From NCBI GenBank assembly GCA_017794925.1, contig CP051238.1, positions 4,451,021 through 4,515,020 on the forward strand: a DNA stretch of 64,000 bases, written 5' to 3'. Below the pieces are notes generated by a model. That model searched no databases and was not told the DNA's origin. It saw nothing but the letters and a program-made list of their open reading frames with translations. Shown piece by piece: positions 12,826 through 42,149 of this stretch. This DNA is from Aestuariibacter sp. (GTDB lineage Bacteria > Pseudomonadota > Gammaproteobacteria > Enterobacterales > Alteromonadaceae). Made by a program: the position numbers and the translations under genes. The stretch's first letter is position 1; the number at the start of each line of letters is the position of its first letter.

Positions 12826-12837
12826 CGGGAGTCAATC

Positions 12838-15660: not shown

Positions 15661-15679
15661 CCAAGCGTGACCTCAACAT

Positions 15680-15718: not shown

Positions 15719-15730
15719 CACACTGCAAAC
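15716..15730. promoter_or_regulatory. IclR-type operator, copy 5 (ETF:QO operon)
   Basis: TTTCAC ACT GCAAAC, a weaker match (perfect left arm, right arm two off), 61 bases upstream of the ETF:QO GTG start. That distance is the same as for copies 2 to 4, which supports function. Confidence 0.5.
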
Positions 15731-15790
15731 TAAGGTATCCGGCCGCTATTGCCTGGCGGAATAACACAATTTAAGAAAAGAGGATTTGCT

Positions 15791-17464
15791 GTGGAACGAG
15801 AATCGATGGAGTTTGACGTAGTGATCGTCGGTGCCGGACCTGCGGGTTTATCGGCAGCCTATCATCTGAAAAAACTGGCGAACGACAAGCAACAGGACAT
15901 CAGTGTTTGCGTGTTGGAAAAAGGCTCTGAAGTAGGCGCCCATATTCTGTCGGGTGCCATATTAGAAACCACAGCCCTGGACGAACTGATCCCCGACTGG
16001 CAGGAAAAAGGCGCACCGCTTACCACGCCCGTTACTGAAGACGCACTGTACCTGCTTAAAGATCAGCAACGCGCCACCAAAGTACCCGGCTGGGCCATTC
16101 CCGCCCCCATGCACAACAACGGCAACTACATTGTGAGCCTGGGCAACGTATGCCGCTGGCTGGCCACTCAGGCCGAAGCCATTGGCGTAGAAATATTCCC
16201 CGGCTTTGCAGCCGCGGAAATCGCCTACGACGACAACGGTCGGGTAAAAGGCGTGTATACCGGCGACATGGGCATTAGCAAAGACGGCGAACAAAAAGAC
16301 AGCTACATGCCCGGCATGGCACTGTACGGCAAATACACTCTGTTTGCCGAAGGCTGTCGTGGTCACTTGGGCAAACAGCTTATCAGCCAGTTCAAGCTCG
16401 ATGAAAACAGCGATCCCCAGCACTACGGTATTGGCATAAAAGAACTGTGGGAGATCGACCCTGCGTTACACAAATCAGGCCTGGTCGTGCACGGCTCAGG
16501 CTGGCCACTGGACAACGACACCACCGGCGGTTTTTTCCTGTACCACGCCGACAACAATCAGGTTGTGGTAGGGTTAATTGTGGATCTGAACTACAGCAAC
16601 CCGCACATCAGCCCGTTCGACGAATTCCAGCAAATGAAGCATCACCCGTTGTTTGCGGACGTACTCTCAACCGGCAAGCGCTTAAGCTACGGCGCTAGGG
16701 CCATTGCCAAAGGCGGCTTAAATGCCCTGCCCGATATGGCATTCCCCGGCGGCCTACTGATTGGCTGTGATGCAGGCACCCTGAACTTCGCCAAAATCAA
16801 AGGCACCCATACCGCCATGAAGTCGGGCATGATTGCAGCAGAAAACGTGCTGAACGCGCTAATTCAGGATGGGCAGAGTGGTCAGGACGGACAAGACAAC
16901 CTGCCAGACACGCTGACCGGCTTCACCGACGCCTTCCGCGATTCCTGGTTACACAAAGAACTGCATGCCAGCCGCAATTTCGGCCCGGCTATGCACAAGT
17001 TCGGCCCCATTATGGGCGGTGCTTACAACTGGATTGAGCAAAACCTGTTTAAAGGTCGCTTACCCTGGACCCTACACGACACCAAGCCCGACTATGCACA
17101 AATGAAACCCGCCAGCGAGTGCCCTGAAAAGCACTACCCTAAACCGGATGGCAAGCTGAGTTTCGACAAGCTCTCGTCGGTATATTTGTCGAACACCAAC
17201 CACGAAGAAGATCAGCCCAGCCATTTGCGCTTACTCGACCCGGCCATTCCGGTAAAAGTAAACCTGGCCAAATACAACGAACCGGCCCAGCGCTATTGCC
17301 CGGCAGGCGTGTACGAAATTGTGGAAGCCGAGTCTGGCCCGCAACTTCAAATCAATGCGCAAAACTGTGTGCACTGTAAAACCTGCGACATAAAAGATCC
17401 GTCGCAGAACATTTGCTGGGTACCGCCCGAAGGTACCGGCGGCCCGAACTACCCGAACATGTAG
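15791..17464 (+). CDS. electron transfer flavoprotein:ubiquinone oxidoreductase
   Basis: A 557-residue membrane-associated flavo-iron-sulfur protein that moves electrons from reduced ETF to ubiquinone. The N-terminal FAD site is FDVVIVGAGPAGLSAAYHL; a ubiquinone/FAD region contains EKGSEVGAHILSGAILE; the C-terminal ferredoxin-like domain ends with four cysteines (CPAGVYEI, then CVHCKTCDIKDP) for one [4Fe-4S] cluster. I prefer GTG at 15791, preceded by AAGAGGA with 8-base spacing, over an ATG at 15749 that would add 14 non-family residues. It heads an operon with the dehydrogenase and thiolase that follow. Confidence 0.95.
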   Translation: MERESMEFDVVIVGAGPAGLSAAYHLKKLANDKQQDISVCVLEKGSEVGAHILSGAILETTALDELIPDWQEKGAPLTTPVTEDALYLLKDQQRATKVPGWAIPAPMHNNGNYIVSLGNVCRWLATQAEAIGVEIFPGFAAAEIAYDDNGRVKGVYTGDMGISKDGEQKDSYMPGMALYGKYTLFAEGCRGHLGKQLISQFKLDENSDPQHYGIGIKELWEIDPALHKSGLVVHGSGWPLDNDTTGGFFLYHADNNQVVVGLIVDLNYSNPHISPFDEFQQMKHHPLFADVLSTGKRLSYGARAIAKGGLNALPDMAFPGGLLIGCDAGTLNFAKIKGTHTAMKSGMIAAENVLNALIQDGQSGQDGQDNLPDTLTGFTDAFRDSWLHKELHASRNFGPAMHKFGPIMGGAYNWIEQNLFKGRLPWTLHDTKPDYAQMKPASECPEKHYPKPDGKLSFDKLSSVYLSNTNHEEDQPSHLRLLDPAIPVKVNLAKYNEPAQRYCPAGVYEIVEAESGPQLQINAQNCVHCKTCDIKDPSQNICWVPPEGTGGPNYPNM

Positions 17465-17471
17465 GTGAATA

Positions 17472-18995
17472 ATGCAAACCATTCAACACACAGGGGTAGT
17501 CGGCGCAGGCGCCATGGGCCGCGGCATTGCACAGGTATTGCTGGCCAGCGGTAAAAACGTGGTACTAGTTGATACCCAGGCCGATGCGCTGACGTCGGCC
17601 CGCGATAACATTAACACCATGCTGACCAAACAAGCCGCCAAAGGCCGCCTGACCGGGATCAGCGTTGAACAGGCCATGAACAACCTGTCGCTGGCACAAA
17701 CCGACGCTCTGGACCAACTGGCCCACTGCGACCTGATTGTCGAGGCCATAGTTGAGCGCTACGACGCCAAAATTGCCCTGTTTCAACAGTTAGAAACTTT
17801 GGTAGCCGAGCACTGTATTCTGGCGACGAACACCTCGTCGTTATCTGTAACCCAGATCGCAGCCGGTTGTGCGAATCCGGAACGCGTAGTGGGCTGGCAC
17901 TTTTTTAACCCCGTGCCGTTAATGCGACTGGCCGAAGTGATTGGCGCACTGCAAACACGCGCCGACGTGGTTGAACAGATTGTTGCCCTTACCCATGCCA
18001 TTGGCCATACGCCGGTAACGGTAAAAGACATGCCCGGCTTTTTGGTGAATCACGTAGGCCGGGGATGCGGCGGCGAAGCGCTGCACGTGCTGGCCGAACA
18101 AGTGGCCGACATTGCCCAAACCGACCGTATTCTTACCGCTCAGTGCGGCTTTAAAATGGGCCCCTTTACCCTGTTCGATTTAACCGGACTGGATATTTCC
18201 CACAAGGTCACTGAGTCAATTTACCAGCAGTTTTATCACGACCCACGCTATCGCCCCAGTCCACTGGCTGAACAGCGTGTGCAGGCAGGTTTACTGGGCA
18301 GAAAAACCGGCAAAGGGTTTTACACCTACACCGACGGCAAGCAGCAAATACCCGAGCAGCCCGCCACGCCTTCGCTCGATGACACAAAGGCTATGCCAGT
18401 GTGGGTTGCAGGCGGCCATAGTCACGAACATAAGCAACTATTGCAATTGTTAAGTAACACCAACGCCATCATTGAACAAGGTAAAGAGCCGTCTGAAGGC
18501 GCGCTGATCATCATTAGCCCCTGGGGCATCGATGCCACCAGCTATGCCTACGCACAAGGATTGGATACCAGCCGCACCATCGCGGTAGATCCCCTGTTCC
18601 CCGATACAGACATTCGCGTACTTATGCGCACACAAGCCACCCGCAGCGACGTAACAGAATACGCCCACGCCCTGTTCGCCAGCACCGGTAAACAGGTAGA
18701 AGTGATTCACGACAGCTACGGCTTCGTAAGTCAGCGAGTATTGGCCTGCATTATCAATATTGCCTGCGACATGGTGCACAAAGACATTGCCAGCGCCGCC
18801 GATATCGACCGCGCCATGCAGCTGGGCTTGGGCTACCCACAAGGTGCCTTTGCCTGGGCCAGTCAAATTGGTGCGGCCAACGTACTGAGCTTGCTACAGC
18901 GGCTGTTCGCTCAAAGCGGCGACCCGCGCTATCGCCCTAGCGTCTGGCTACAGCGCCAGGTTAAAACTGGTAGTCCACTCATTCAAGGAGCCTGA
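17472..18995 (+). CDS. 3-hydroxyacyl-CoA dehydrogenase, PaaH/PaaC-like with duplicated C-terminal domain
   Basis: A 507-residue NAD-dependent dehydrogenase. The Rossmann domain begins [28 protein letters not shown] and [19 protein letters not shown] are the family signatures. One 3HCDH domain lies at about 185-285 and a second at about 410-500 ([16 protein letters not shown] then [11 protein letters not shown]), the layout of phenylacetate-pathway PaaH proteins. It oxidises 3-hydroxyacyl-CoA to the 3-keto ester. It starts eight bases after ETF:QO and ends two bases before the thiolase, so all three should be one transcript. Resemblance to PaaH does not prove a dicarboxylyl substrate. Confidence 0.92.
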
Positions 18996-18997
18996 TC

Positions 18998-20206
18998 ATG
19001 AAACACGCTTATATTTACGATGGGATCCGTACCGCTTTTGGTCGTCACGGCGGGGCGTTGGCCCACACCCGCCCTGATGACCTGTTATCTTTATGCCTGA
19101 AGGGCTTACTGGCGCGTAACGATGTACCGGGCGACACAATCGAAGATGTGATCATTGGCTGTACTAACCAAGCCGGTGAAGACGCCCGAAACGTAGCGCG
19201 TCACGCCGCGCTGTTAGCTGGTATACCCGAAACGGTTGCCGCGCAAACCCAAAACCGCTTATGCGGTAGCGGGCTGTCAGCCAGCATAGAAGCGGCCCGC
19301 GCCATTATGTGTAACGAAGGCGACTGGATGATTGCAGGTGGCGTTGAAAGCATGAGTCGCGCGCCGTTTGTGATGGCCAAGAACAGCCAGCCCTTTGGTC
19401 GCGATGTCGAGGTATTCGACAGCACCATTGGCGCACGCTTTCCCAATCCCAAAGTGGAAGCCGCCGTGGGCAACGACACCATGCCACAAACCGCCGACAA
19501 CATTGCCAGCGATTTGGCCATTAGCCGTGAACAAAGCGACGTCTTTGCCCTGGCCTCACAACACAAATACCAAAAGGCCAAAGCCGACGGTTTCTTTAAC
19601 GATGAAATCCTGCCGGTAACCGTGCCTGGCGCAAAGCGCAAAACCACCGTTGACGTAGCCGAAGACGAACATCCAAGAGCCGATGCCGAAGCCAGTAAGC
19701 TAGCGTCACTCAAACCCTTGTTCGCCAATGGTGTAGTGACGGCCGGTAACGCATCAGGCATTAACGACGGTGCAGCAGCGTTGTTATTGGGCAGCAAGGA
19801 AGCCGGTGAAGCGCTCGGCATGTGCCCTCGTGCTCGGGTGGTGGCCTGTGCAGTAGCCGGGGTAGCACCAAGGGTAATGGGCTTAGGCCCGGTTGCCGCT
19901 ATTCGCAAAGCCCTGCGGCGCGCCAACTTAACACTGAACGACATGGACGTCATCGAAATTAACGAAGCCTTTGCCGTTCAGGTGCTAGGCTGCTTAAAAG
20001 AACTGAACGTAGCGTTCGACGACAGCCGGGTTAACCCCAATGGCGGCGCCATTGCCGTGGGCCACCCACTGGGCGCATCGGGCGTGCGGCTGGCGTTAAC
20101 CGCCCTGCGTCAGTTAGAACGACAACAAGGCCGGTACGCAGTAGTCAGCTTGTGTATTGGCGTGGGTCAGGGCGTTGCCATGATCCTGGAGAGGGAGTTG
20201 GCTTAG
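18998..20206 (+). CDS. thiolase, PcaF/PaaJ-like
   Basis: A 402-residue thiolase close in appearance to 3-oxoadipyl-CoA thiolases (IYDGIRTAFGRHGGAL, RNVARHAALLAGIP). The nucleophile is Cys89 (QNRLCGSGLSAS); NPNGGAIAVGHPLGASGVRL and CIGVGQG carry the other catalytic residues. Together with the preceding PaaH-like enzyme it could finish a beta-oxidation of a dicarboxylic acyl chain, giving succinyl-CoA or a shorter acyl-CoA plus acetyl-CoA. A strong RBS (AAGGAG) lies in the tail of the upstream gene. It is the last gene before the regulator, with a large hairpin after its stop. Confidence 0.93.
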   Translation: MKHAYIYDGIRTAFGRHGGALAHTRPDDLLSLCLKGLLARNDVPGDTIEDVIIGCTNQAGEDARNVARHAALLAGIPETVAAQTQNRLCGSGLSASIEAARAIMCNEGDWMIAGGVESMSRAPFVMAKNSQPFGRDVEVFDSTIGARFPNPKVEAAVGNDTMPQTADNIASDLAISREQSDVFALASQHKYQKAKADGFFNDEILPVTVPGAKRKTTVDVAEDEHPRADAEASKLASLKPLFANGVVTAGNASGINDGAAALLLGSKEAGEALGMCPRARVVACAVAGVAPRVMGLGPVAAIRKALRRANLTLNDMDVIEINEAFAVQVLGCLKELNVAFDDSRVNPNGGAIAVGHPLGASGVRLALTALRQLERQQGRYAVVSLCIGVGQGVAMILERELA

Positions 20207-20419: not shown

Positions 20420-21214
20420 ATGACAGAGTTTAGTGACCTGCCACGTAAGAAGAGCGACAGTAGCGACCGGAAGTTTATTGAATCACTTGCCCGCGGCCTG
20501 GATGTGTTGCGCGCATTCAGCCAACAAGGCGGTGTACTGGGTAACCAGGATCTGGCACGGATCACCGGCCTGCCCAAACCCACCATTTCCCGCATGACCT
20601 ACACCCTGAGCAAACTGGGGTATTTGTCGTACTCAACCCAACTGGAAAAATACCAACTGGATGCAGGCGTGTTAGCGCTGGGTTATGCTTATACCTCTAA
20701 CCTGCAGGTGCGCCGCATTGCCAAGCCCATTATGGAGCGCCTGGCAGAACGCGTAAACCTGTCGGTAGGCCTTACCATTCGCGAGCGCCTGACCATGATT
20801 TACGTAGAAAACTGCCGCGGCGACGACGCCCAAGCACTGCGCATGGACGTTGGCTCAAGCTTGCCTATCTCTACCTCGGCAGCAGGCCGCGCCTACTTAG
20901 CAGGCCTTCCGCAGGAAGAACGTGACGTCGTAATGAAAGAAATGGAAGCCCGCGCCGGCGACAAGTGGCCAAAACACAAAGCCGGCATTGAAGCCGCAAT
21001 AGAATGCTACGACAAACACGGCTTCGTCACGTCTTTCGGCGACTGGGACCGCGCAGTAAACAGCGTAGGTGTATCACTAAGACTGCAAGACGGCCGCATT
21101 ATGGCACTCAACTGCGGTGGCCCAACCTATCTGGTATCAGAAGAAATGGCCATGGAAAGCTTAGGCCCGCAGTTGGTTCACGTCGCCAGAGATATTATTG
21201 GTACCGGGGTTTAG
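20420..21214 (+). CDS. IclR family transcriptional regulator
   Basis: A 264-residue IclR-type regulator. The N-terminal winged helix-turn-helix (about residues 20-85) includes SLARGLDVLRAF and LPKPTISRMTYTLSKLGYL. The C-terminal effector domain includes VNLSVGLTIRERLTMIYVEN and ISTSAAGRAYLAG. Members usually bind small carboxylate or aromatic ligands. It sits at the end of the catabolic block in the same direction. It is the only IclR protein in the window, and the only regulator located within either catabolic block, so it is the best candidate to bind the eight TTTCRC-N3-GYGAAA palindromes. No copy was found upstream of its own gene. Confidence 0.93.
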   Translation: MTEFSDLPRKKSDSSDRKFIESLARGLDVLRAFSQQGGVLGNQDLARITGLPKPTISRMTYTLSKLGYLSYSTQLEKYQLDAGVLALGYAYTSNLQVRRIAKPIMERLAERVNLSVGLTIRERLTMIYVENCRGDDAQALRMDVGSSLPISTSAAGRAYLAGLPQEERDVVMKEMEARAGDKWPKHKAGIEAAIECYDKHGFVTSFGDWDRAVNSVGVSLRLQDGRIMALNCGGPTYLVSEEMAMESLGPQLVHVARDIIGTGV

Positions 21215-31394: not shown

Positions 31395-31409
31395 TTTCAC
31401 AATGCGAAA
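31395..31409. promoter_or_regulatory. IclR-type operator, copy 6 (TRAP transporter)
   Basis: TTTCAC AAT GCGAAA fits the palindrome with no arm mismatch to TTTCRC/GYGAAA. It covers the predicted transcription start and lies 12 bases before the DctP-like start codon, a position fit for repression. Confidence 0.7.
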
Positions 31410-31421
31410 CTTAGTGTCGAA

Positions 31422-32435
31422 ATGAAAAGATTTACTCACTGTGTTATTGGACTCTGTATAAGCTTATTGCTTGCCCCTACATTTGCCCAGGCCGAGTCGC
31501 CCCGCGTGTTGCGTCTGGCGTCCTGGGGGCCGCCTAAACATTACCTGTCGCAGTCGCGCAATGCGTGGATTGAAGCCGTGAATGAACGGGCGGCGGGTCG
31601 CATTCAAATCATAGAATATCCGGGAGGGCAGTTGTATGGCCCTAAAGATATGCACCGTGCGGTAGCGCATGGACTCATTGATATGGGTGTCATATTGCAG
31701 CCTCGGTTGATGGCGACCGTGCCGTTGTTGCAAGGGGTGTATCTGCCATTTGCCTACGACACCATGGAACAAGCCGCCAATACTTATGCCGGTGAGTCGC
31801 TGGCAATTATTCAGCAAGCCATGCAGGAAAAAAACCTGCAGCTTGTCTATCCGGCGTTTAGTGGCGGTGTACAGGTATTCAGCGCTCAGGGCGGTATTAA
31901 TGGCATTGCCGACATTAAGAACCTGCGCGTGTTGGCCACCAGCCCTATGGTGACCGACTTACTGCATAAATTAGAAGCTGCGCCCGATACTTCGATTCCC
32001 CAAAGTGAACAATACATGGCACTGAAACGCGGTGTGGCCGATGCCATGCTGAACGCTATTGTTACCGGGTATTTTCAGCGCAATCACGAAGTCGCTCCAT
32101 TTGTTACCGTTACCGATATGAGCTTCCCTACTGTGCTAATGACGGTAAATCTGGACGTGTGGAATTCACTGCCAGAAGACATTCAACAGATCATGCTGGA
32201 AGAAGGCGAGAAGCAAAAAGCCTACTCCCTTGGCGCATCGGCGGCCATGGAGGCGCACTTCAAGCAGGTGATCAGCGAGAACGGCGGCAAGGTATCGGCC
32301 CTGCCCGCTGGCACACGCGCTCTTATTCAGCAAGCCAGCCAACAGGTGTGGCAGGAGTGGGCGAAGCGCAATGGCCCTCAGGCCCTGCGCCTTCTCGAAC
32401 TTAACTTGCCTCAACCGGCTACGCCTCAGGAGTAA
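31422..32435 (+). CDS. TRAP transporter substrate-binding protein (DctP family)
   Basis: A 337-residue periplasmic binding protein with a signal peptide (LLLAPTFAQAES). Family features are LRLASWGPPKHYLSQSRNAW, the carboxylate-contact region YPGGQLYGPKDMHRAVAHG near 65-83, and the ISGLKVLATSP-like segment IADIKNLRVLATSP near 160. DctP proteins bind organic acids and deliver them to the DctQM membrane part for sodium-driven uptake. No clear Shine-Dalgarno is visible, and an IclR-type palindrome lies immediately upstream. It is the first gene of the dctPQM-like operon and probably brings in the acid used by the catabolic regulon. Confidence 0.92.
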   Translation: MKRFTHCVIGLCISLLLAPTFAQAESPRVLRLASWGPPKHYLSQSRNAWIEAVNERAAGRIQIIEYPGGQLYGPKDMHRAVAHGLIDMGVILQPRLMATVPLLQGVYLPFAYDTMEQAANTYAGESLAIIQQAMQEKNLQLVYPAFSGGVQVFSAQGGINGIADIKNLRVLATSPMVTDLLHKLEAAPDTSIPQSEQYMALKRGVADAMLNAIVTGYFQRNHEVAPFVTVTDMSFPTVLMTVNLDVWNSLPEDIQQIMLEEGEKQKAYSLGASAAMEAHFKQVISENGGKVSALPAGTRALIQQASQQVWQEWAKRNGPQALRLLELNLPQPATPQE

Positions 32436-32438
32436 CCC

Positions 32439-32939
32439 ATGCAGCTTCATCGTTATTCGTTTCAGTACACCATTGATGCACTGTGCAAAGCCGGCGCATG
32501 GCTGGCCGCACTCTGTTTGTTAGTACTTGCCCTTGTGGTGAGCTATGAAGTTGTGGTGCGCTACACCACTGGCGTTTCCAGCAGTTGGATTCAGGAGTTC
32601 TCGGTTTACTTAATGATGGCCGTTGGCTTTTTAGCCGCAGCGTATGCACTTCAAATGAACAGTCACTTCGCCATTACCTTTTTTGTCGATAAGTTGTCAC
32701 TGGCCAAGCGCCGCCGACTCACCATTACCACCAACGCGGTGGGTTTGTGCTATTCACTGATGTTTGTGGTGAAAGGCACTGACATGGCTATGGCCATGTA
32801 CGCGCTGGGCGATACCAGTACCGGCTTAATGCAAACGCCGTTATGGCTGCCAGCCAGTCTGGTGCCCATTAGCGGTGTGTTGCTAAGCCTGCAGTTTTTA
32901 AGTCACACCATCGACAACATTACCCAGGGGAGTCACTAA
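32439..32939 (+). CDS. TRAP transporter small membrane subunit (DctQ family)
   Basis: A 166-residue inner-membrane protein with four predicted helices. The second half of helix 1 and the loop VVRYTTGVSSSWIQEFSVYL match the DctQ signature with its conserved polar W-x-E. It starts three bases after the binding-protein gene with a good AGGAG site. It assembles with the large subunit that follows. Confidence 0.9.
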   Translation: MQLHRYSFQYTIDALCKAGAWLAALCLLVLALVVSYEVVVRYTTGVSSSWIQEFSVYLMMAVGFLAAAYALQMNSHFAITFFVDKLSLAKRRRLTITTNAVGLCYSLMFVVKGTDMAMAMYALGDTSTGLMQTPLWLPASLVPISGVLLSLQFLSHTIDNITQGSH

Positions 32940-32942
32940 GTC

Positions 32943-34229
32943 ATGGATACGTTAATGATTTTACTGGGTATTGTGGTATTTATGCTGGTACTGCTAAGTG
33001 GCTTACCGGTTGCATTCGGACTGGGCTTTTTGGCCATTTTATTACTGAGTGCCTACGTAGGCCCGGACACGGCCACCGACATTGCGGTAGATAAAGCTTA
33101 CTCCGCTATCGACTCTGACATTCTGGTTGCGATCCCACTGTTTATTCTGGCTGCACAGCTTATTTCCGCCACCGGTATGGGCAAGCGTTTATTCAGTGCG
33201 GCTGAAGTGTTTTTATGGCGGTTGCGCGGCGGTTTAGGTGTCGCCACCATTGGTAGCAGCGGCGTATTCTCTGCTATGACGGGGTCGAGCTTTGTGTCAT
33301 CGTCGACTATGGGCTTGATTGCTATTCCTGAACTGCGCAAAGCCGGTTACGGAGAGTCCAAAATTGCCGCGGCGATCACGGCGGGCGGCACACTGGGCAG
33401 CATGATCCCACCCAGTATTGTGATGATCGTTTACGGTTACCTTACCGATGAATCGATCAGTAAACTGTTTATGGCGGGTGTGATCCCCGGCTTGCTACTG
33501 ATTGTGTTGTATTCGCTGTTTATGGTGTTCACCGGTCATGCCGAACACACCTCCCCGGCTCAGAAGCCATCGCAAAAGAAACGCCACGCCATAAAAGAAG
33601 CGTTCTGGGGGATCATGGCCCCGGTAATTATTCTAGGCGGCATTTATCTGGGTATTTTCACCGCGTCAGAAGCGGCAGCGGTTGCCGTGGTGTACTGCAT
33701 GGTGATTGGCTTTGTAGTATATCGCACGCTAACCCTTAAATCCCTTTGGGAGCAATTGATGGCCGCCGCGGTCACCTCAGCCATGGTTACCATGATCATT
33801 ATTGGCGGGGCAATTCTGGGCCACAGCGTAATCTTCGGGCGCATGCCGCAGGAAGTGTTAAGCGCAATTATCAGCATGGATATCTCGCCCATGGCGCTAC
33901 TGATCATTATTAACCTGGTGTTGTTTGTGCTGGGTATGTTTTTGGAAGTCCTGGCGCTAATGTATTTGGTTATTCCGTTACTGGTACCGGTCATTGCGCA
34001 CATGGGCTGGGACAACATCTGGATTGCGGTAATGCTGCTGATTAACGTGAACCTGGCGCTCATTACACCGCCTATGGGTGGCGTGCTTTATGTAGTATCT
34101 CACATTGGTAATATGCCGCTTAGCACGGTAATGAAAGGCGCGCTTATGCCTATTACAGCGCTGATCATTGTGTTAATCCTCACTCTTATCTTTCCGTCAC
34201 TGGCACTGTGGTTGCCGAGCCTGACGTAG
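32943..34229 (+). CDS. TRAP transporter large membrane subunit (DctM family)
   Basis: A 428-residue permease with about twelve hydrophobic segments. Recognisable DctM segments include VAIPLFILAAQLISATGMG, TGSSFVSSSTMGLIAIPEL and GGTLGSMIPPSIVMIVYGYL, which carry the substrate and sodium-binding hairpins. It completes the TRAP operon and is followed by a strong terminator, so the transporter is a self-contained three-gene unit. Confidence 0.94.
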   Translation: MDTLMILLGIVVFMLVLLSGLPVAFGLGFLAILLLSAYVGPDTATDIAVDKAYSAIDSDILVAIPLFILAAQLISATGMGKRLFSAAEVFLWRLRGGLGVATIGSSGVFSAMTGSSFVSSSTMGLIAIPELRKAGYGESKIAAAITAGGTLGSMIPPSIVMIVYGYLTDESISKLFMAGVIPGLLLIVLYSLFMVFTGHAEHTSPAQKPSQKKRHAIKEAFWGIMAPVIILGGIYLGIFTASEAAAVAVVYCMVIGFVVYRTLTLKSLWEQLMAAAVTSAMVTMIIIGGAILGHSVIFGRMPQEVLSAIISMDISPMALLIIINLVLFVLGMFLEVLALMYLVIPLLVPVIAHMGWDNIWIAVMLLINVNLALITPPMGGVLYVVSHIGNMPLSTVMKGALMPITALIIVLILTLIFPSLALWLPSLT

Positions 34230-34324: not shown

Positions 34325-34771
34325 TTATTTATTCGCTGGTATTGGGTCCTGACTGCGGTAGCGAAACGTCCCTTCGCCAAAAGCCAGCAAGTTACCTTGT
34401 GCGTCTTTCACTTCACCAGACGCGCTGTATATGCGTCGGCCTTGAGCCCTTACTTTGCCGCTGGCCGTGATCAGCCCTTCGCTGCACTGGCCGGTAAAGG
34501 TTGTGGTGAGCGACAAGGTTACCGAGCGGCGAATCACCTGCTCGTCGGGAAAGTAAATCCCGGACTGCGCGCACACAATATCGAGTAAGCCCGACAGCAC
34601 GCCCCCGTGTAACACGCCTGCTAAGTTCAGATGCTTGGGCTCAATTTGCAGGATAACGGTAGAAAACCCTCTGCCCCAATCGCGATGCTGATAATTCAGC
34701 ATCGCATGGTAGCCGGTTTCCATGAGCTCATAGGCCATGTCCGGCAGCTTTACTGCAGCGCCGTCTGTCAT
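34325..34771 (-). CDS. PaaI-type hotdog thioesterase
   Basis: A 148-residue hotdog-fold protein. LNLAGVLHGGVLSGLLDIVC is the PaaI-like active-site segment (H-G-G with a downstream Asp). Members hydrolyse acyl-CoA or aryl-CoA esters, often to release CoA from dead-end intermediates. It is the last gene of the minus-strand catabolic operon, its ATG overlapping the aldehyde dehydrogenase stop (ATGA). Confidence 0.85.
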   Translation of the reverse strand: MTDGAAVKLPDMAYELMETGYHAMLNYQHRDWGRGFSTVILQIEPKHLNLAGVLHGGVLSGLLDIVCAQSGIYFPDEQVIRRSVTLSLTTTFTGQCSEGLITASGKVRAQGRRIYSASGEVKDAQGNLLAFGEGTFRYRSQDPIPANK

Positions 34772-36207
34772 GACTTGTACCAGCCCAGAACCGATTTAAT
34801 CTCCAGGAAGTCCTGCAAGCCATGCTCGCCCCACTCCCGGCCATTACCCGACTGTTTGTAGCCGCCAAAGGGCGCGTGTAAATCGGGCTGGGCGCCGTTC
34901 AAATGCACCATACCGGTACGCATCTGACTGGCGACACGACGTACTCTGTCTGTATCGGCACCCGACACATAACCGCTCAGGCCATAAGGGCTGTCGTTGG
35001 CTATAGCTACCGCGTCAGAATCATCCCGGTAACCAATGATCACCAGTACCGGACCAAAGATTTCTTCTCTGGCAATGGTCATGTCGTTGGTTACATCGGT
35101 GAATATCGTAGGTTTTACGTAGAAGCCCTGGGTCAGGCCTTCCGGTTTACCGGTGCCACCACATAACAAGGTTGCGCCTTCTTCAATGCCTTGGGCAATC
35201 ATGGCCTGAATCTTTTCAAACTGACGTTGATGTGCCACCGGGCCAATACCGGTTTTATCGTTAGTCGGGTCACCTACCGCATGTTGTGAGGCCTCCCCCA
35301 CAGCCTTGGCTATGGCAACGACTTCGGCCATTTTGCTATTGGGTACCAGCATACGCGTAGGGGCCGTACAGGTTTGCCCGGAATTAGCGAACACCGCTTT
35401 AATGCCATTGGTCACCGCTTTGGTCATGTCGGCGTCGTCTAAAATGATATTGGCCGACTTACCACCGAGCTCTAGCGCAACGCGCTTCACAGTATCAGCG
35501 GCCGCTTTACTCACTTCTGCGCCAGCCTGAGTAGAGCCGGTAAAAGAAATCATGTCGATATCGGGGTGGCGACTCATGTAATCACCAATTTTGGAGCCTG
35601 AACCCTGCACCAGATTAAACACCCCGGCAGGCACACCCGCCTCGTGCAGTACCTCAGCCAGAATAGCCGCACTCAAGCTGGCATCCTGACTGGGTTTGAG
35701 CACAATGGTACACCCCGCAGCCAATGCCGGTGCAACCTTGCACACCACCTGATTCATTGGCCAGTTCCAGGGGGTAATTAAACCCACCACACCAATGGGC
35801 TCTTTACGGATTTCAGTTGTGCCCTGCTGATGGCTAAATTCAAAGGACTTCAGTATTTCCAGCGTGGCAGAGAAATGCCCGATGCCCATCGCCGCCTGAG
35901 CACTTTGGCTCAACGACACAGGCGCCCCCATTTCCAGCGTAATCGCCTGAACAATATCGGCGTAGCGCTTTTTGTAGCAGCCAATAATGCGTTCGAGCAG
36001 CGCAATACGGTCTTCAACCGGGCTGACCGACCAGGACGGAAATGCCGCTTTTGCCGCAGCAATGGCAGCATCTACATCGGCACTTTCCCCCATTGCCACT
36101 TCGCCACTAACGGCTTCTGTGGCAGGGTTAATCAGCTTGCGCGTATGCGAGGTGCTGGGCTTTACCCATTCACCGTTAATGTAAAATTCAGTAGTCTTCG
36201 CTTGCAT
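34768..36207 (-). CDS. NAD(P)-dependent aldehyde dehydrogenase
   Basis: A 479-residue aldehyde dehydrogenase. Catalytic features are LITPWNWPMNQV near 150, KPSQDASLSA near 180, the general base in LELGGKSANIIL and the nucleophilic cysteine in NSGQTCTAPTRML near 285. It oxidises an aldehyde to the acid. It follows the acyl-CoA ligase by 17 bases with its own AGGAATC site. In the ferulate pathway an aldehyde dehydrogenase also sits beside a ligase of this type, but the needed hydratase-aldolase is not evident here. Confidence 0.92.
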   Translation of the reverse strand: MQAKTTEFYINGEWVKPSTSHTRKLINPATEAVSGEVAMGESADVDAAIAAAKAAFPSWSVSPVEDRIALLERIIGCYKKRYADIVQAITLEMGAPVSLSQSAQAAMGIGHFSATLEILKSFEFSHQQGTTEIRKEPIGVVGLITPWNWPMNQVVCKVAPALAAGCTIVLKPSQDASLSAAILAEVLHEAGVPAGVFNLVQGSGSKIGDYMSRHPDIDMISFTGSTQAGAEVSKAAADTVKRVALELGGKSANIILDDADMTKAVTNGIKAVFANSGQTCTAPTRMLVPNSKMAEVVAIAKAVGEASQHAVGDPTNDKTGIGPVAHQRQFEKIQAMIAQGIEEGATLLCGGTGKPEGLTQGFYVKPTIFTDVTNDMTIAREEIFGPVLVIIGYRDDSDAVAIANDSPYGLSGYVSGADTDRVRRVASQMRTGMVHLNGAQPDLHAPFGGYKQSGNGREWGEHGLQDFLEIKSVLGWYKS

Positions 36208-36224: not shown

Positions 36225-38156
36225 TTAATTCACGACAGGTGAAACGGCGGACTGCGATTGCGGGCTGCGCAGATCAGACAATACGCTATCATCTGGTTCG
36301 TCTGCATACAAAGCCGCAACGTCGTTGGCGCGCAATACCTGCACTTTTCGTTGATTAATAGAACGTTTATCTGACATCTCGCCGGTATCCATACTTGGCG
36401 GCGTGGTCAGTATACGGGCGCGCTCAATGCGGGTAGACGCGCCGCTGTGTTGTACGTTGTGTTCGTAAAGCGACTGGCGAATTCGAGCGATCACGCGAGG
36501 GTGCGCAGCCAGTTCTTCGGAGGTTGCATCCGGCATGCCGAATACCCGTTTCACGACGTCTTCGTTTAGCCAGATCAATAGCCCCAGATAGGGTTTGTCC
36601 TGACCGGTGATCACCACATCAAACACAAGGGGTGCTAATACACTTTGTAAATCGATTCGCAGCATACTGGTATGTACCCAAGTGCCGTTAAGCAGTTTGA
36701 AGTCTTCGCTTACCCGACCAGCAAACTGTAACCCTTTTTCAGGCTGTTCCGGATCGAGCCAGCGCACCGCATCTCCGGTATGAAAGAAACCTTCATTGTC
36801 GAACACCTGCTTATTCAGAGTCTCGGCCTGATAATACCCAGGCGTAATTTGCGGGCCTTTCACGCACAGTTCGTATTTATCGTCTTTCGGCACTAACTTC
36901 AAAAGCGTACCGGGAATAGGTAAACCAATGCTGCCCATTTCGGTCGTTGGCCAGTGCACAATGGTGGTCGCGGCGGCACTTTCGGTAGCGCCCAGTGCGG
37001 TGATCATACTAATGCGTTTACCGGTTTCCCGGATCGCCAGTTGCTGGAAGTGATCAAAGGTTTCCTGAGGCATATCGGACCCCCCATAGCTGCACCAGTC
37101 CATATGACGGAAAAACGCTTCCCGCAGCGCGTCGTCGCGCTCCATCGCATCCACCAGCAGGGCATATACAGCTGGCACGGTAGTATAGCAATTCAGCGGC
37201 ACGGTTTTAATGTTGTCGAGGGTTTTCTGGAACATACCCGGAACCGGTTTACCGTCGTCGATATACAATGTGCCACCACTTTTAATGACCCGGTGCACGT
37301 TTTGATTCCCACCGTACGTGTGGTGCCAGGGCATCCAGTCGAGCATGATCGGCGGGTTGTTTTCATCGTCAACGTCTATCACGGTGAGCAATGAAGCCTG
37401 CGTGGCGCACAAATTAGTGTGAGTATTCACTACACCTTTGGGTTCCCCGGTGGAGCCAGAGGTAAACAGAATTTTCGCAATATCGTCGCCTTGTATAGCC
37501 TGAATGGCGTCTGATACCTGCGAAGTCACAGCGGTGTTGGCCGCATCGGCAAACGATACCGCATAGATCCCTTCTGGCACTTCACCTTCAGCGTACAACA
37601 CCACACAATGTTCCAACGACAATGCTTTTAGCGCCCTGGCGTAATGGGTAATGTTTTGCACAAAAATCACCTGGGGCTCGAGCTTGGCAAAAATCGCTTT
37701 CAGCTTATTGAAGTCTTTCGACAGCAGTGAGTAATTAGGCGAGATGGGTGCAATGGGGCAACGGGCTTTCATTCCCGCCAGGTTTACCGCTGCATGCTCT
37801 AGTGTGTTGTGCGACAAGATCATCACATTGGCTTGAGGCTGGGTATTATCCAGAAACCATTGAGCCAATGCGTCGGTTTGCTTGTCGATGGCTTCGTAAG
37901 TAACGAAAGTCCAGTCTGACTCCTTTGGGCGAGCGGCATGGCTTGCTTGCTCGCCAAATGAATCAGCACGCATTTCAGCCATAAAACGTCGCTGCGGGTA
38001 CTTGGCAACCGTACGCTGGAACATATCAATCACATTGTGGTAGCTGCGTTGTGGTACGCGATCGCTGTCCACCAGTAGTGAACCATCGTCGCACCGCTGC
38101 ACATTCACACTGGGCGCTGCCCAGGGGTTTTCTTTGAAAGGCGGTAAATCAGTCAT
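36225..38156 (-). CDS. acyl-CoA ligase (AMP-forming), feruloyl-CoA synthetase-like
   Basis: About 643 residues, an ANL-superfamily ligase that activates a carboxylic acid with ATP and CoA. The P-loop reads LFTSGSTGEPKGVVNTHTN; the A5 and A7 regions ITALGATESAAATT and FHTGDAVRWLD are visible. Overall length and segments such as PIAPISPNYSLLSKD recall feruloyl-CoA synthetases more than fatty acyl-CoA synthetases. ATG 38156 (MTDLPPFKENPW) overlaps the SurE stop by eight bases; a 13-residue longer form with an upstream ATG would lie deep inside surE. The substrate is unverified. Confidence 0.88.
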   Translation of the reverse strand: MTDLPPFKENPWAAPSVNVQRCDDGSLLVDSDRVPQRSYHNVIDMFQRTVAKYPQRRFMAEMRADSFGEQASHAARPKESDWTFVTYEAIDKQTDALAQWFLDNTQPQANVMILSHNTLEHAAVNLAGMKARCPIAPISPNYSLLSKDFNKLKAIFAKLEPQVIFVQNITHYARALKALSLEHCVVLYAEGEVPEGIYAVSFADAANTAVTSQVSDAIQAIQGDDIAKILFTSGSTGEPKGVVNTHTNLCATQASLLTVIDVDDENNPPIMLDWMPWHHTYGGNQNVHRVIKSGGTLYIDDGKPVPGMFQKTLDNIKTVPLNCYTTVPAVYALLVDAMERDDALREAFFRHMDWCSYGGSDMPQETFDHFQQLAIRETGKRISMITALGATESAAATTIVHWPTTEMGSIGLPIPGTLLKLVPKDDKYELCVKGPQITPGYYQAETLNKQVFDNEGFFHTGDAVRWLDPEQPEKGLQFAGRVSEDFKLLNGTWVHTSMLRIDLQSVLAPLVFDVVITGQDKPYLGLLIWLNEDVVKRVFGMPDATSEELAAHPRVIARIRQSLYEHNVQHSGASTRIERARILTTPPSMDTGEMSDKRSINQRKVQVLRANDVAALYADEPDDSVLSDLRSPQSQSAVSPVVN

Positions 38157-38946
38157 AGAGCGTCTCTGTATTCGTGGTTTTAAACGCTGGCACAACGCGG
38201 GTGCCAGGCGGGTAGGGATTCGGTTGATTCAGGCACTGCACCGCAATGTGGTGTTTGCGCAATGTGCCAATGTCAGAAGTGTCAGCCGTGATAGGCCGGT
38301 AATCATGTTCAAACTCAAGCCAGTAATAGGCCCGGTTACGCGGGTCGTGGCGACAATCGGTAGTGACCCGCTTAATACTGCCTTCACTGCCTTCGCACCA
38401 GTCCACACCCTTTACTTGCTGCGGTGGTATGGCCGGAAAGTTAATGTTCACACACGGGGCTTTTTGCCACTTCACGGCCAGTAGCTCTCGAATAATGCTC
38501 GCCGCATAGGTTTTTGCAGTGTTCCAGTGTATTTGGTCAGCGCGTTTAAAGGCCTGACTGAGCCCAATGGCCGGCACGCCAAATTGTGCAGCCACTTTGG
38601 CAGCGCCCAGAGTACCTGAAAACCCCACGGCATCGCCCACGTTAGCCCCGCGATTAATACCGCTTAACACCACATCTACCGGTCCCGGCAGCAAGCTGTT
38701 TAGTCCCAGCAACACGCAATCAGCGGGGGTACCGTTTGCGCTAAACTGTCGCTCACCATGATCGGTAACCCGCAGCGGTGTATGCAACGACAACGACTGG
38801 GCCTGTCCGGAGCAATCCTGATTGGGGGCGACCACATACACTTCGCTTGCCAGTTCACTGGCTAATGTCTGTAAATGCGCGATGCCCTCGGCATCAATGC
38901 CATCGTCATTAGTAATCAGAATGCGTTGTAAAAGCGGCTGGCTCAT
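38149..38946 (-). CDS. SurE-like phosphatase / 5'-nucleotidase embedded in a catabolic operon
   Basis: A 265-residue SurE-family metal-dependent phosphomonoesterase. RILITNDDGIDAEG near residue 8 supplies the metal-binding Asp pair; VVLSGINRGANVGD and YSGTLGAA-like FSGTLGAAKVA follow as in the family. Housekeeping surE normally sits beside pcm and rpoS and acts on nucleoside monophosphates. Here it is locked between an SDR gene (ATGA overlap) and an acyl-CoA ligase (eight-base overlap), so it belongs to this operon. A role on a phosphorylated pathway intermediate is inference. The C-terminal half is longer and more charged than I expect of SurE, about 15 residues over the usual length. Confidence 0.88.
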   Translation of the reverse strand: MSQPLLQRILITNDDGIDAEGIAHLQTLASELASEVYVVAPNQDCSGQAQSLSLHTPLRVTDHGERQFSANGTPADCVLLGLNSLLPGPVDVVLSGINRGANVGDAVGFSGTLGAAKVAAQFGVPAIGLSQAFKRADQIHWNTAKTYAASIIRELLAVKWQKAPCVNINFPAIPPQQVKGVDWCEGSEGSIKRVTTDCRHDPRNRAYYWLEFEHDYRPITADTSDIGTLRKHHIAVQCLNQPNPYPPGTRVVPAFKTTNTETLYD

Positions 38947-39734
38947 ACTTTCATGCCCGGCAAATTCAGCGAGGCGGTGTTGCCGCCATCTACCGGTAGC
39001 GCTTGTCCGGTAATGTAACTGGAATCGCTACTGGCCAAAAAGGCAATCGCCGCAGCAACTTCGGCAGGCTGCCCTGCCCGTTTTAACTCACAACGTTCGC
39101 CCAACCGATGTTCAATGCCTTTTTCTCTGGCTAAGTCAAAGAAGGGGCTGGTCATGCCGGTTTCAATTAACCCCGGACACACGGCATTAACGCGAATGCC
39201 TTTGCTGGCTAAATCGCAGGCGGCGGTTTGGGTAAAATTAATCACCGCAGCTTTCGACGCACTGTAAGCATTGCCTCCCGCACCGGAGCGGATCCCAGCA
39301 ACCGAGGCGGTATTCACAATAGCCCCGCCCTCGGCCTGACCGGCCATAATGGCAGCCACCAGCGAGGTAAGTTTTACGCAGCCATACACGTTGACCGCCA
39401 TTACGCGCTGCCATTCCGCAATATCCTGTTCATCGGCAAGCTTTCTGCTGCTGACTACACCCGCGTTATTGCACAGCACGTCAAAGCGGCCGAACGTGGT
39501 GTGCGCTTCGTTTATCACCTGGGTGAGCTGAGCTTCGTCGGCAATGTCCACAACACTCGCCATCACTTTGGTTTTAGCGCTTAACCCCTGGGCGACGGTC
39601 TTTAAGTTTTCCTCGTTGCGATCCAATAACACCAGCCCGGCTATATCTTCCTCTGCCAGCCGCACAGCCGTGGCAGCGCCAATACCGCTGGCCGCTCCGG
39701 AGATCACAGCCACCTTGTTGGTAAATCTTCCCAT
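38943..39734 (-). CDS. short-chain dehydrogenase/reductase
   Basis: A 263-residue classical SDR. Coenzyme motif SGAASGIGAATA, NNAG at about 90, catalytic Tyr-Lys in NAYSASKAAVIN and PGLIETGMTS after it. It probably oxidises or reduces a hydroxyl or keto group with NAD(P). ATG 39734 (MGRFTNKVA) is preferred over one 21 bases upstream because GGAG lies nine bases before it. It is the first gene of the minus-strand operon and has an IclR-type palindrome about 48 bases upstream. Confidence 0.9.
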   Translation of the reverse strand: MGRFTNKVAVISGAASGIGAATAVRLAEEDIAGLVLLDRNEENLKTVAQGLSAKTKVMASVVDIADEAQLTQVINEAHTTFGRFDVLCNNAGVVSSRKLADEQDIAEWQRVMAVNVYGCVKLTSLVAAIMAGQAEGGAIVNTASVAGIRSGAGGNAYSASKAAVINFTQTAACDLASKGIRVNAVCPGLIETGMTSPFFDLAREKGIEHRLGERCELKRAGQPAEVAAAIAFLASSDSSYITGQALPVDGGNTASLNLPGMKV

Positions 39735-39781
39735 GGCACATCGCTCCGTTCTCAATATTTAATATTTTGAAAAATGCATGA

Positions 39782-39806: not shown

Positions 39807-39821
39807 TTCTGCTATACGAAA
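39807..39821. promoter_or_regulatory. IclR-type operator, copy 8 (MaoC/SDR/kinase operon)
   Basis: TTCTGC TAT ACGAAA, a degenerate copy. It lies 23 bases upstream of the MaoC start, 10 bases from copy 7. Confidence 0.5.
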
Positions 39822-39844: not shown

Positions 39845-40297
39845 ATGATGAATTTTGAATCTGTCGACGCACTCGATAAACACGTTGGAAAATCACTGGG
39901 TGTAAGCTCTTGGTTTAGCCTTAGTCAGCAACAGGTCAACGCCTTTGCCGATACCACACTGGACTTTCAGGGTATTCACCTGAATACAGACGCAGCCAGA
40001 GCCTCCGGCTTTGACGCCCCTATTGCCCATGGTTATCTACTGTTGGCGCTGTTACCCCATCTCGCCGAGCAGGTGTATTCGGTAAACGGCATGTCCAGCA
40101 AAATCAATTACGGTCTCGACCGCTGCCGCTTCATTACTCCTGTGCCAACGGATGCCGAAATTCGTGCGTCATTCACCCTTGTTGAGGTATTGCACAAACC
40201 CAAAGGTATCCAAATAACCGTAGATGCCGAGTTGCAAATACGGGATCACGATAGGCCCGCTGTGGTTGCCCGCACACTGGCGTTGTTAATTCCATAA
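39845..40297 (+). CDS. MaoC-like (NodN-type) enoyl-CoA hydratase
   Basis: A 150-residue single hotdog domain of the MaoC/NodN branch. The active-site Asp and His appear as DFQGIHLN (the D-x4-H spacing of R-specific hydratases, with QG in place of NP), followed by the helix segment ARASGFDAPIAHGYL. It should add water to a trans-2-enoyl-CoA. It is the first gene of the plus-strand operon; either ATG 39845 or 39848 could be used. Confidence 0.85.
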   Translation: MMNFESVDALDKHVGKSLGVSSWFSLSQQQVNAFADTTLDFQGIHLNTDAARASGFDAPIAHGYLLLALLPHLAEQVYSVNGMSSKINYGLDRCRFITPVPTDAEIRASFTLVEVLHKPKGIQITVDAELQIRDHDRPAVVARTLALLIP

Positions 40298-40307: not shown

Positions 40308-41072
40308 ATGCAAAATTTATTTTCACTGAAAGATAAGGTGGCGCTGATCACCGGTTCAACTAAAGGCATTGGTCTGAGTATTGCCGAAACCTATGCCGCT
40401 GCCGGTGCAAAGGTAGTAATCTCCAGTCGCAAGGCGGAGGTGTGTGAAGCTGTGGCTAACGAGTTACGCGAAAAAGGTTTTGAGGCGATTGCCAAGCCTT
40501 GCCATATTGGCGACAAAGCGCAGTTGCAGGATCTGGTAGATACCACCCTTGCCACCTGGGGAAAAATTGATGTGCTGGTATGTAATGCTGCCACCAACCC
40601 CGTGTACGGGCCGCTGTCAGAGTTAACTGACGACGCCTGGGACAAAATCATGGATACCAATGTAAAAAGCACCTTCTGGCTATGCAACATGGTATTACCC
40701 GGCATGGCTGAAGCCGGTGGCGGTTCGGTGATTTTACTGTCGAGTATCGCAGCCATTAAAGGCAACGATAAAATTGGTTGCTACGGTATGTCAAAAGCGG
40801 CCGAAGCTGCGCTCACCCGCAACCTGGCTGTTGAGTGGGGGCCAAAAGGTATTCGCGTAAACGCCATTGCACCGGGCGTGGTAGTCACTGACTTTGCCAA
40901 AGCGCTGGTAGAAGACCCTAAACGCAAGGCGATTGTAGAAAACCAGACGCCACTTCGCCGACTCGGCCAGCCTATCGACATCGCGGGCGTTGCGCAGTTT
41001 CTGGCAACCGACGCCTCGGCCTACATGACGGGCCAGTATTTAGTCGCCGATGGCGGCACGACTATTTGTTAA
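40308..41072 (+). CDS. short-chain dehydrogenase/reductase
   Basis: A 254-residue classical SDR, FabG-like in overall form. TGSTKGIGLSIAETY binds coenzyme, VCNAAT replaces NNAG, and catalytic Tyr-Lys are in CYGMSKAAEAAL. It could act on 3- or 4-hydroxyacyl-CoA. It is flanked by strong RBS sequences (AAGGAGG) and spaced nine or ten bases from its neighbours, so it is cotranscribed with the MaoC and kinase genes. Confidence 0.9.
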   Translation: MQNLFSLKDKVALITGSTKGIGLSIAETYAAAGAKVVISSRKAEVCEAVANELREKGFEAIAKPCHIGDKAQLQDLVDTTLATWGKIDVLVCNAATNPVYGPLSELTDDAWDKIMDTNVKSTFWLCNMVLPGMAEAGGGSVILLSSIAAIKGNDKIGCYGMSKAAEAALTRNLAVEWGPKGIRVNAIAPGVVVTDFAKALVEDPKRKAIVENQTPLRRLGQPIDIAGVAQFLATDASAYMTGQYLVADGGTTIC

Positions 41073-41081: not shown

Positions 41082-42149
41082 ATGAGTGCTCATGAAGCCA
41101 CCTTAGTCGATGTGCTGGCTGCCCATGCTTTTGACGAGTCGGCATTGAAAGCCTATTTGCAAACGACGCTTAATCAGACGTTTTCTACCTTCTCGATTCA
41201 GCAGTTTCAGGGCGGGCAATCCAACCCGACCTTCAAAGTCATTGCCGACGATCACCAATGGGTGCTGCGTAAAAAGCCTGCAGGAAAGCTGCTGCCGTCT
41301 GCCCATCAGATCAACCGGGAATACCGTGTAATGGCGGCGCTAGCTAATACGCCTGTACCGGTGCCTACCATGATTTGCTACTGCGACGATCAAAGCATTA
41401 TTGGTACCGAGTTCTATGTCATGGACTATGTGCCGGGACTGCTGATCGAACATCCGGCCTGCGAAGGGTTGTCGGCGTCTGACACACAACATATATACGC
41501 CAGTATGGCCGACACACTGGCCGCTCTGCACAATGTTGGTATTGCCAGTGTTGGCCTTGATGATTACGCAAGAGGCGGTGATTATTACGGGCGCCAAATT
41601 AAGCGCTGGAGCGAACAATACCGCCAGTCTTGTGAACCACCAGCAGGCGGCGGAGAAGGTGCCAGAGCCATGCAGTATTTGATGGCGTATCTGCCCGACA
41701 ACATCCCCGCCGATACCAGCACTTGCTTAGTACACGGTGACTTTCGGATTGGTAACCTATTGTTTAACCGCGACAGCAAAGACGTGGCTGCCGTGCTGGA
41801 CTGGGAGCTCTCCACCTTAGGGCACCCGCTGGCAGATTTGGCGTATTGCTGTATTCCCTACCACCTGCCACAAGACGACACCGGCACAAAAGGCTTGGTG
41901 GGTATAGACCTTGAAGCGCGCGGTATTCCTACTGAAGCTGAATTTATCCAACGCTACTGCAATAGCACAGGTCGTGACAACATTGAACAGTGGCCCTTCT
42001 ATGTGGCGTTTTCCATGTTCCGGCTGGCTGCCATTTTACAAGGCGTGTACGCCAGAGCCATTCAGGGTAACGCCAGCTCCGCCAACGCTCTGACGGTAGG
42101 CGCACGAGCCGCACTACTGGCCACAACAGCTGCAAAGTTGGTGAGTTAA
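41082..42149 (+). CDS. APH-like phosphotransferase (putative acyl-CoA hydroxyl kinase)
   Basis: A 355-residue aminoglycoside-phosphotransferase-fold kinase. The nucleotide loop is FQGGQSNPT (42-50), followed by Lys64 or Lys65 (VLRKKPAGKL), Glu80, the catalytic loop VHGDFRIGN with Asp220 and Asn225, and the metal Asp240 (AVLDWELSTLGHPLADLAY). The WELSTLGHPLADLA form marks the branch fused to acyl-CoA dehydrogenase in ACAD10/11 and used in bacterial levulinate catabolism, rather than antibiotic resistance. With the ACAD10/11-like enzyme at 10272 it could phosphorylate a 4-hydroxyacyl-CoA so that the phosphate can be eliminated. A strong RBS (AAGGAGG) precedes the ATG. It ends the operon. Confidence 0.88.
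   Translation: MSAHEATLVDVLAAHAFDESALKAYLQTTLNQTFSTFSIQQFQGGQSNPTFKVIADDHQWVLRKKPAGKLLPSAHQINREYRVMAALANTPVPVPTMICYCDDQSIIGTEFYVMDYVPGLLIEHPACEGLSASDTQHIYASMADTLAALHNVGIASVGLDDYARGGDYYGRQIKRWSEQYRQSCEPPAGGGEGARAMQYLMAYLPDNIPADTSTCLVHGDFRIGNLLFNRDSKDVAAVLDWELSTLGHPLADLAYCCIPYHLPQDDTGTKGLVGIDLEARGIPTEAEFIQRYCNSTGRDNIEQWPFYVAFSMFRLAAILQGVYARAIQGNASSANALTVGARAALLATTAAKLVS

Follow-up and report, generated by a model that had tools for sequence, protein, structure and literature searches.

How do a kinase and a dehydrogenase that animals fuse in one chain come to work together, if they do, in a bacterium whose genes for them lie far apart? ACAD10 and ACAD11 have recently been described as opening 4-hydroxy acids to beta-oxidation (2024, 2025; PMC12440821, PMC11342911). 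In Aestuariibacter sp. we find both families as separate, unfused chains whose genes are 29.5 kb apart. Both lie in what we call the window, a stretch of 64,000 nucleotides (positions 4451021–4515020) of a genome that is 4.74 Mb long and assembled as one contig; of the named relatives represented by kinase loci, Marisediminitalea aggregata comes closest (97%). We think it probable that the two genes belong to one island, in which the kinase would phosphorylate a 4-hydroxyl group and the acyl-CoA dehydrogenase (ACAD), acting in trans, would eliminate the phosphate, the two enzymes forming a pair re-assorted from two lineages.

Results

The features of the island are listed below in window coordinates, with strand and basis. 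X and Y are clades in our trees.

3358..7950, minus: MFS, acetyl-CoA acyltransferase and FadB-like protein (ORFs, profiles)
7970..7984, plus: operator-like site TTTCACTATGCGGTA (pattern, matrix)
8118..8132, plus: operator-like site TTTCGCTATGCGGTA (pattern, matrix)
8193..10246, plus: Zn alcohol dehydrogenase and quinone-oxidoreductase-like protein (profiles)
10272..11534, plus: ACAD11-type acyl-CoA dehydrogenase, group Y, predicted phosphate-eliminating (PDB, tree, alignment)
11549..11563, plus: operator-like site TTTCGCTATGTGAAA, between the ACAD11-type and PimC-like genes (pattern, matrix)
11584..13974, plus: PimC/PimD-like ACAD pair, ordinary ACADs without the phosphate pocket (profiles, alignment)
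13984..20206, plus: EtfB, EtfA, ETF-QO (named from translations), 3-hydroxyacyl-CoA dehydrogenase and 3-oxoadipyl-CoA thiolase (profiles)
20420..21214, plus: regulator of the IclR family, sharing 72% identity with its counterpart next to the Halomonas eurihalina kinase cluster
31395..31409, plus: operator-like site TTTCACAATGCGAAA, before the TRAP genes (pattern, matrix)
31422..34229, plus: TRAP transporter, three genes (ORFs, profile match)
34325..34771, minus: hotdog thioesterase, 4HBT (profile match)
34768..36207, minus: aldehyde dehydrogenase (profile match)
36225..38195, minus: acyl-CoA ligase (PRK12582, 722.2 bits, cut-off 777)
38149..38946, minus: SurE-type phosphatase, 2.1 kb from the kinase and on the opposite strand (profile match)
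38943..39755, minus: SDR1 (ORF, profile match)
39807..39821, plus: operator-like site of degenerate sequence, preceding the kinase operon (score 11.3, 3 mismatches)
39845..40297, plus: MaoC-type hydratase, with which the kinase operon begins (profile match)
40308..41072, plus: SDR2, 9 bases before the kinase (ORF, profile)
41082..42149, plus: APH-fold kinase, ACAD11/3dxp type, group X, predicted 4-hydroxyacyl-CoA kinase (Pfam, PDB, trees, alignment)

The kinase has 355 amino acids and an ATG start, carries WELSTLGHPLADLA and matches Pfam APH with an E-value of 1.7e-48. Its PDB matches (phmmer) are 3dxp (4e-90), mouse ACAD11 8v3v (8.2e-76) and 9o56 (2.5e-45). Over the aligned stretches it is 46% identical to 3dxp, 42% to mouse ACAD11, 29% to 9o56 and 32% to a second kinase of its own genome. 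The ACAD has 420 amino acids and carries YADGPDEVH. Its best PDB matches are mouse ACAD11 (8v3u, 7.1e-118; 8v3v, 3.6e-117) and human ACAD11 (2wbi, 1.2e-116), followed by 4hr3 (9.4e-110), after which the next match drops to 2.2e-39; it is 48.5% identical to mouse ACAD11 over the aligned stretches. A preliminary description of the window had read these genes as an APH-like kinase and an ACAD10/11-type dehydrogenase. Both frames are real, and the Pfam and PDB matches and the aligned residues confirm their families.

For the dehydrogenase the residues are informative. In this type a catalytic aspartate replaces the glutamate usual in ACADs. The first aspartate of YADGPDEVH is D382, which aligns with ACAD11 D753, and together with R255, R260, H263 and R266 it fills the phosphate-pocket and catalytic columns of ACAD11. 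According to PMC12440821, the 4-phosphate is held in the model by R626, H634 and R637 of ACAD11, D753 acts as the base, and R631 is common to ACADs in general. The whole set is present in 80 of 82 ACAD rows, and the two exceptions are the ordinary ACADs next door in the window. In mouse ACAD11 the kinase residue D220 is described as catalytic, aided by N225, with R176 close to CoA (PMC12440821). These align with D220 and N225 of the HGDxxxxN loop and with R171 of the window kinase. All 91 tree rows, even the outgroups, conserve these three residues, which hence do not discriminate the ACAD10/11 type. For R86, also named in PMC12440821, the matching alignment column holds no arginine.

The placement of both proteins was assessed with trees. 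Containment reduced 160 kinase and 165 ACAD matches to 100 and 110; we then discarded near duplicates, judged by 4-mer overlap, together with a few named copies of the window and any copy that exceeded 99.5% identity to it. The quick trees held 91 kinase and 82 ACAD rows, PDB and window rows included, and the careful trees 36 hand-picked rows each. In the quick tree the kinase falls in an 81-row starred side with mouse ACAD11. In the careful tree it falls in a 31-row side (100/100) with ACAD11 and 3dxp, apart from 9o56 and the second kinase of the genome. Both proteins group with ACAD10/11-type proteins, as had been proposed, and the kinase does not sit with unrelated APH branches.

The two clusters had also been suggested to form one regulon, and the gene order in relatives points the same way. 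M. aggregata has the complete gene set on one contig in the order of the window, with kinase and ACAD split in the same manner. In Halomonas eurihalina we find a single kinase of this type (E<=1e-20) and a single ACAD of this type (E<=1e-60), both in homologues of the window clusters. One of its contigs ends with the FadB-like gene, an ACAD-like ORF of 600 amino acids in the opposite direction, QOR, ACAD, ACADb, ACADc and the first 31 residues of EtfB. A second contig starts with the last part of ETF-QO, followed by an enoyl-CoA hydratase-like gene, IclR, TRAP, ligase/SDR1, MaoC, SDR2 and the kinase. EtfA was not found in the Halomonas assembly at E<=1e-20, which would be expected if it lies in the gap between these contigs. 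With contig ends that fall in the ETF genes, and operator-like sites that recur in four control regions shared by both genomes, the clusters appear by gene order and sites to be a single island linked to IclR, its Halomonas halves lying on two contigs that the assembly leaves unjoined.

The IclR and TRAP genes are 10.2 kb apart in the window, 6.8 kb in M. aggregata and about 0.6 kb in Halomonas. Between them, the window has GGDEF, RsgA, amidohydrolase, GGDEF, HTH and PIN genes. M. aggregata shows only the first GGDEF gene and RsgA at this place and lacks the amidohydrolase, GGDEF, HTH_17 and PIN_3 genes that the window carries at 24766–31248. The HTH_17–PIN_3 pair looks like a toxin–antitoxin pair. 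Between the kinase and SDR3 genes (42190–42390) we also observed repeated stretches of the type CCTGAAACGCG-AGCG. In Tepidiphilus olei and two other genomes (G302, G410), PimC/PimD-like ACADs and a FadB-like gene lie near an ACAD–SDR2–kinase–SurE set.

A shared operator type had been proposed for the two genes as well. Across the 4.74 Mb of the genome, the pattern TTTCRCWATGYGRWA is matched perfectly at four places, every one in the window (7970, 8118, 11549, 31395); these are also the sites from which the pattern was drawn. With one mismatch there are 13 genome matches versus 19 for the reversed control, so we regard one-mismatch matches as background. A first operator pattern, searched over the whole window with up to three mismatches, found 29 sites and was not above chance (shuffles mean 20.86; 9 of 100 reach 29). 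A matrix was then built from the four window sites and applied to Halomonas. At a score of at least 13.5, the 30 kb scanned contain six sites, none of them outside the four control regions that correspond to those of the window. Two are in the divergent region at FadB (14.0, 13.6) and two in the gap that separates ACAD from ACADb (15.4, 14.0); TRAP (17.4) and MaoC (14.0) are each preceded by one. When the four stretches are resampled with a first-order Markov model, each gives 0.002 to 0.008 matches on average, and an equal scan of 1.46 Mb of other loci, which are redundant, gives 11 matches. The proposal holds for the most part: perfect sites occur at both clusters of the window, but the kinase operon's own site is degenerate, with three mismatches; this site (39807) is identical in M. 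aggregata and strain GS-14. From the recurring sites we infer that the IclR regulator binds them. In Halopseudomonas bauzanensis (L074:3097-3111) a TRAP gene is preceded, at a distance of about 30 bases, by an operator-like site TTTCGCTGTGCGAAA with a score of 17.7, and similar sites occur in L076 and L078.

Is it common for kinase and ACAD to be separated? Among 118 sampled genomes of the family there are 40 kinase places above 270 bits, the window included. At 29 of the others, analyzed as loci, an ACAD11-type ACAD lies at most 0.7 kb away on the same strand, and at the remaining 10, for which listed coordinates were compared, it is adjacent on the same strand. The split is therefore unusual, since 39 of 39 other kinase places adjoin an ACAD; M. 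aggregata lies outside this sample. In a proteobacterial MAG (L081:8904-10999) two kinases of the family stand in tandem, 46% and 47% identical to that of the window.

The trees suggest that the two halves have different histories. In the careful tree the window kinase pairs with that of Halomonas eurihalina (98/91) inside a 10-row group X, whose support of 91/93 is just below the star; in the quick tree group X has 12 rows and is starred with 97. The window ACAD also pairs with that of Halomonas (99/99), inside an 11-row group Y (100/100). For seven of the nine other group X rows, the nearby ACAD belongs to a separate 7-row group (100/98, careful tree); the other two are Halomonas and a row on a short contig (L165) on which no ACAD was seen. 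Conversely, six of the nine group Y rows besides the window and Halomonas have a kinase within 3 kb, in the trees always one outside group X, and three have none at that distance. Identities agree with the trees. The window kinase is 50–58% identical to X and 46–50% to Y-linked kinases, and the ACAD is 60–77% identical to Y and 52–55% to X-linked ACADs.

A tree constrained to unite the window and Halomonas kinases with four Y-linked kinases is worse by 112 log-likelihood units (p-AU 1.2e-6), and one constrained to unite their ACADs with the X-linked ACADs is worse by 213 (p-AU 1e-78), p-values that are not clean because the groups were named after the first trees had been seen. The kinase test first used six Y-linked kinases, which do not form a single clade when the tree is unconstrained, and was repeated with four. 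The plain reading of these trees, with groups chosen post hoc, is that an X kinase and a Y ACAD would form a re-assorted pair that is present in both genera, and that both lineages seem to be paired usually with other partners.

The same genome carries a second set at 2.03 Mb (G000:C1:2028540 to about 2032400; L002, L004), in which ACAD, SDR, kinase and a histidine phosphatase follow in a row. Its ACAD and kinase are 51% and 34% identical to those of the window, and its kinase groups with 9o56, not with ACAD11. With this second set in the genome, it is harder to argue that no other pair than the window's is possible.

Phosphatase genes recur next to the kinases. SurE or a histidine phosphatase lies within 3 kb of 30 of 87 kinases in a scan whose flanks were often only 1.5 kb long and for which two queries were taken from the scanned rows themselves. 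SurE is found beside nine of the 11 non-window X rows and none of the 76 other rows, the histidine phosphatase beside 21 of the 87, and both together in no row. At the level of loci, none of the 77 without a kinase holds either phosphatase; those with a kinase, which are redundant and on average somewhat longer, hold SurE in 29 and the histidine phosphatase in 38 of 168 cases.

Discussion

Our results are consistent with an island that would degrade an acid bearing oxygen at C4. The TRAP transporter would import the acid and the ligase, which has no PDB match at E<=1e-20, would make the CoA ester. Where C4 of the intermediate bears oxygen, an SDR would convert it to the 4-hydroxyacyl-CoA; SDR2, conserved at 67–74% beside 10 of the 11 non-window group X kinases, is a possible 4-oxoacyl-CoA reductase. 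The kinase at 41082 would then transfer a phosphate from ATP to the 4-hydroxyl, and the ACAD at 10272 would remove it on its flavin to yield an enoyl-CoA. The PimC/PimD-like ACADs, the FadB-like protein, the dehydrogenases and the thiolases would complete the breakdown. The PimC/PimD-like pair stays below the cut-offs of TIGR03204 and TIGR03203 (459.8/623.85 and 348/652.7 bits, the best matches of each above E 1e-60), and the 3-oxoadipyl-CoA thiolase (660.4 bits, cut-off 622) and 3-hydroxyacyl-CoA dehydrogenase (642.6, cut-off 508) exceed theirs. The island is probably controlled by the IclR regulator at 20420, and kinase and ACAD, from lineages with other partners elsewhere, would have been brought together in an island common to Halomonas eurihalina.

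That the pair consists of a 4-hydroxyacyl-CoA kinase and a phosphate-eliminating ACAD is a prediction with good support from homology. It draws on the PDB matches, the ACAD11 pocket and catalytic residues, the placement of the kinase with ACAD11 and 3dxp, and from the company that relatives keep, both the 39 kinases that adjoin ACAD11-type ACADs and the six of nine group Y ACADs with a kinase nearby. In addition, bacterial relatives of kinase and ACAD are described as able to replace the corresponding domains of ACAD10 (PMC11342911).

One could also argue that kinase and ACAD of the window serve separate steps or pathways, the real pair being the 2.03-Mb set or partners swapping between sets. 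A complete ACAD–SDR–kinase set does exist there, and ACADs outnumber kinases in Halopseudomonas genomes. Several genomes show such a surplus, with ratios of ACAD11-type ACADs to kinases of 4:1 in G122, 3:1 in G123, G125 and G126, and 3:2 in G124. In another genome (G293) a 72% identical ACAD is present and such a kinase absent (none at E<=1e-75, none in the 11 kb fetched); ACADs of this kind may use the kinase of another system or have some other function. This surplus, G293, the second set and the degenerate site before the kinase operon count against our reading of 4-hydroxyl removal. Nevertheless, we consider separate roles unlikely: both window genes are in one island with recurring operator-like sites, the pocket of the window ACAD is intact, and Halomonas eurihalina, at the thresholds used, has only a single kinase and a single such ACAD, both in the homologous island. 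In a Pseudomonas genus (that of G505) we noticed at least one ACAD11-type ACAD, of the 50–55% class, in 25 of 25 genomes.

The breadth of APH-fold kinases and the long beta-oxidation island with its two other ACADs would fit a kinase acting on another hydroxylated small CoA ester or acid, not at C4, with an ACAD that uses the product or is ordinary. It is quite improbable that this is so, given that the 4-phosphate pocket is kept in all ACAD rows except the window's ordinary ACADs and that ACAD10 and ACAD11 are described as inactive on plain acyl-CoAs (PMC12440821). We give practically no credence to an aminoglycoside resistance enzyme, for which the APH fold might speak. The match to the NCBIfam APH(3') model (NF033068) reaches 43.6 bits against a cut-off of 205, the kinase groups with ACAD11 and 3dxp, and it shares an operon with SDR and MaoC genes.

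What remains of the earlier substrate proposal is the 4-hydroxyacyl part, through homology to the ACAD10/11 type; levulinate is unlikely. The lva operon has the order kinase–LvaB–ACAD–SDR–ligase, from which the gene orders of both the window and the 2.03-Mb set differ. It was not recognizable either in the candidate regions of a Pseudomonadaceae sample (79 genomes, seven regions) or in one genus (25 genomes). Levulinate is unsupported because this order is missing and the neighbors are PimC/PimD-like ACADs and a 3-oxoadipyl-CoA thiolase, parts of a long beta-oxidation set. With low confidence, we suggest a 4-oxo or 4-hydroxy medium-chain acid, perhaps dicarboxylic.

How does the island compare with known systems? 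It shares both families and the mapped catalytic and phosphate-pocket residues with mammalian ACAD11 and ACAD10, which are single chains, whereas the window has two distant genes of two lineages; ACAD10, unlike the window pair, is also described as carrying a HAD domain (PMC12440821, PMC11342911). Pseudomonas putida LvaA and LvaC are likewise a separate kinase and ACAD acting on 4-hydroxyacyl-CoA, encoded, unlike here, in a single levulinate operon (PMC12440821, PMC11342911). LvaA is reported to be 29% identical to the ACAD10/11 kinases, and LvaC 62% and 56% to their ACAD domains (PMC11342911); the identities of the window proteins to mouse ACAD11 (42% and 48.5%) can be set beside these published values to ACAD10/11 only.

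The sets of Tepidiphilus olei, Vreelandella utahensis and Halopseudomonas (L072-L078) share the X kinase, an SDR2 of 67–74% and SurE beside the kinase, and differ in an adjacent ACAD of the other group, 52–55% identical to that of the window. Plasmids of Caballeronia sp. NK8 and Ruegeria sp. AD91A carry kinase–SDR–ACAD sets with group Y ACADs (70% and 66%) and, unlike the window, adjacent genes with kinases outside group X. In Ruegeria TRAP and IclR genes adjoin the set, as here, and no SDR lies between kinase and ACAD. The azelaic acid cluster azeTSLR also combines TRAP, an IclR-family regulator, thioesterase and acyl-CoA ligase; its description in PMC10945470, by which we compare it, differs in including no kinase or ACAD11-type gene.

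The system is thus of a recognized kind. Its split, re-assorted arrangement appears to be new, because our literature searches, judged by listings, titles and abstracts, gave no such pair. By titles and abstracts, no article describes such a kinase/ACAD gene set; of the matches listed for gamma-lactones and 4-hydroxyacyl-CoA, only the two ACAD10/11 papers are on topic by title, none was found that links azelaic acid with IclR and TRAP, and a search by annotation phrases gave no paper.

We hypothesize that SurE guards the phospho-intermediate. The HAD domain of ACAD10 is described as restraining the ACAD10 kinase, with negligible phosphatase activity (PMC11342911). A broader idea, which we offer tentatively and would sooner doubt than accept, is that these systems are modular: swapped kinase and ACAD lineages would act in trans, a varied phosphatase (SurE, histidine phosphatase or the HAD domain of ACAD10) would drain or guard the phospho-intermediate, and the window would be a natural X/Y swap. 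That a phosphatase gene so often lies near the kinase suggests an explanation, open to testing, for the unusual HAD domain of ACAD10. If truly split and re-assorted, the pair would reveal which of the two enzymes determines the substrate range and whether they need to be in contact.
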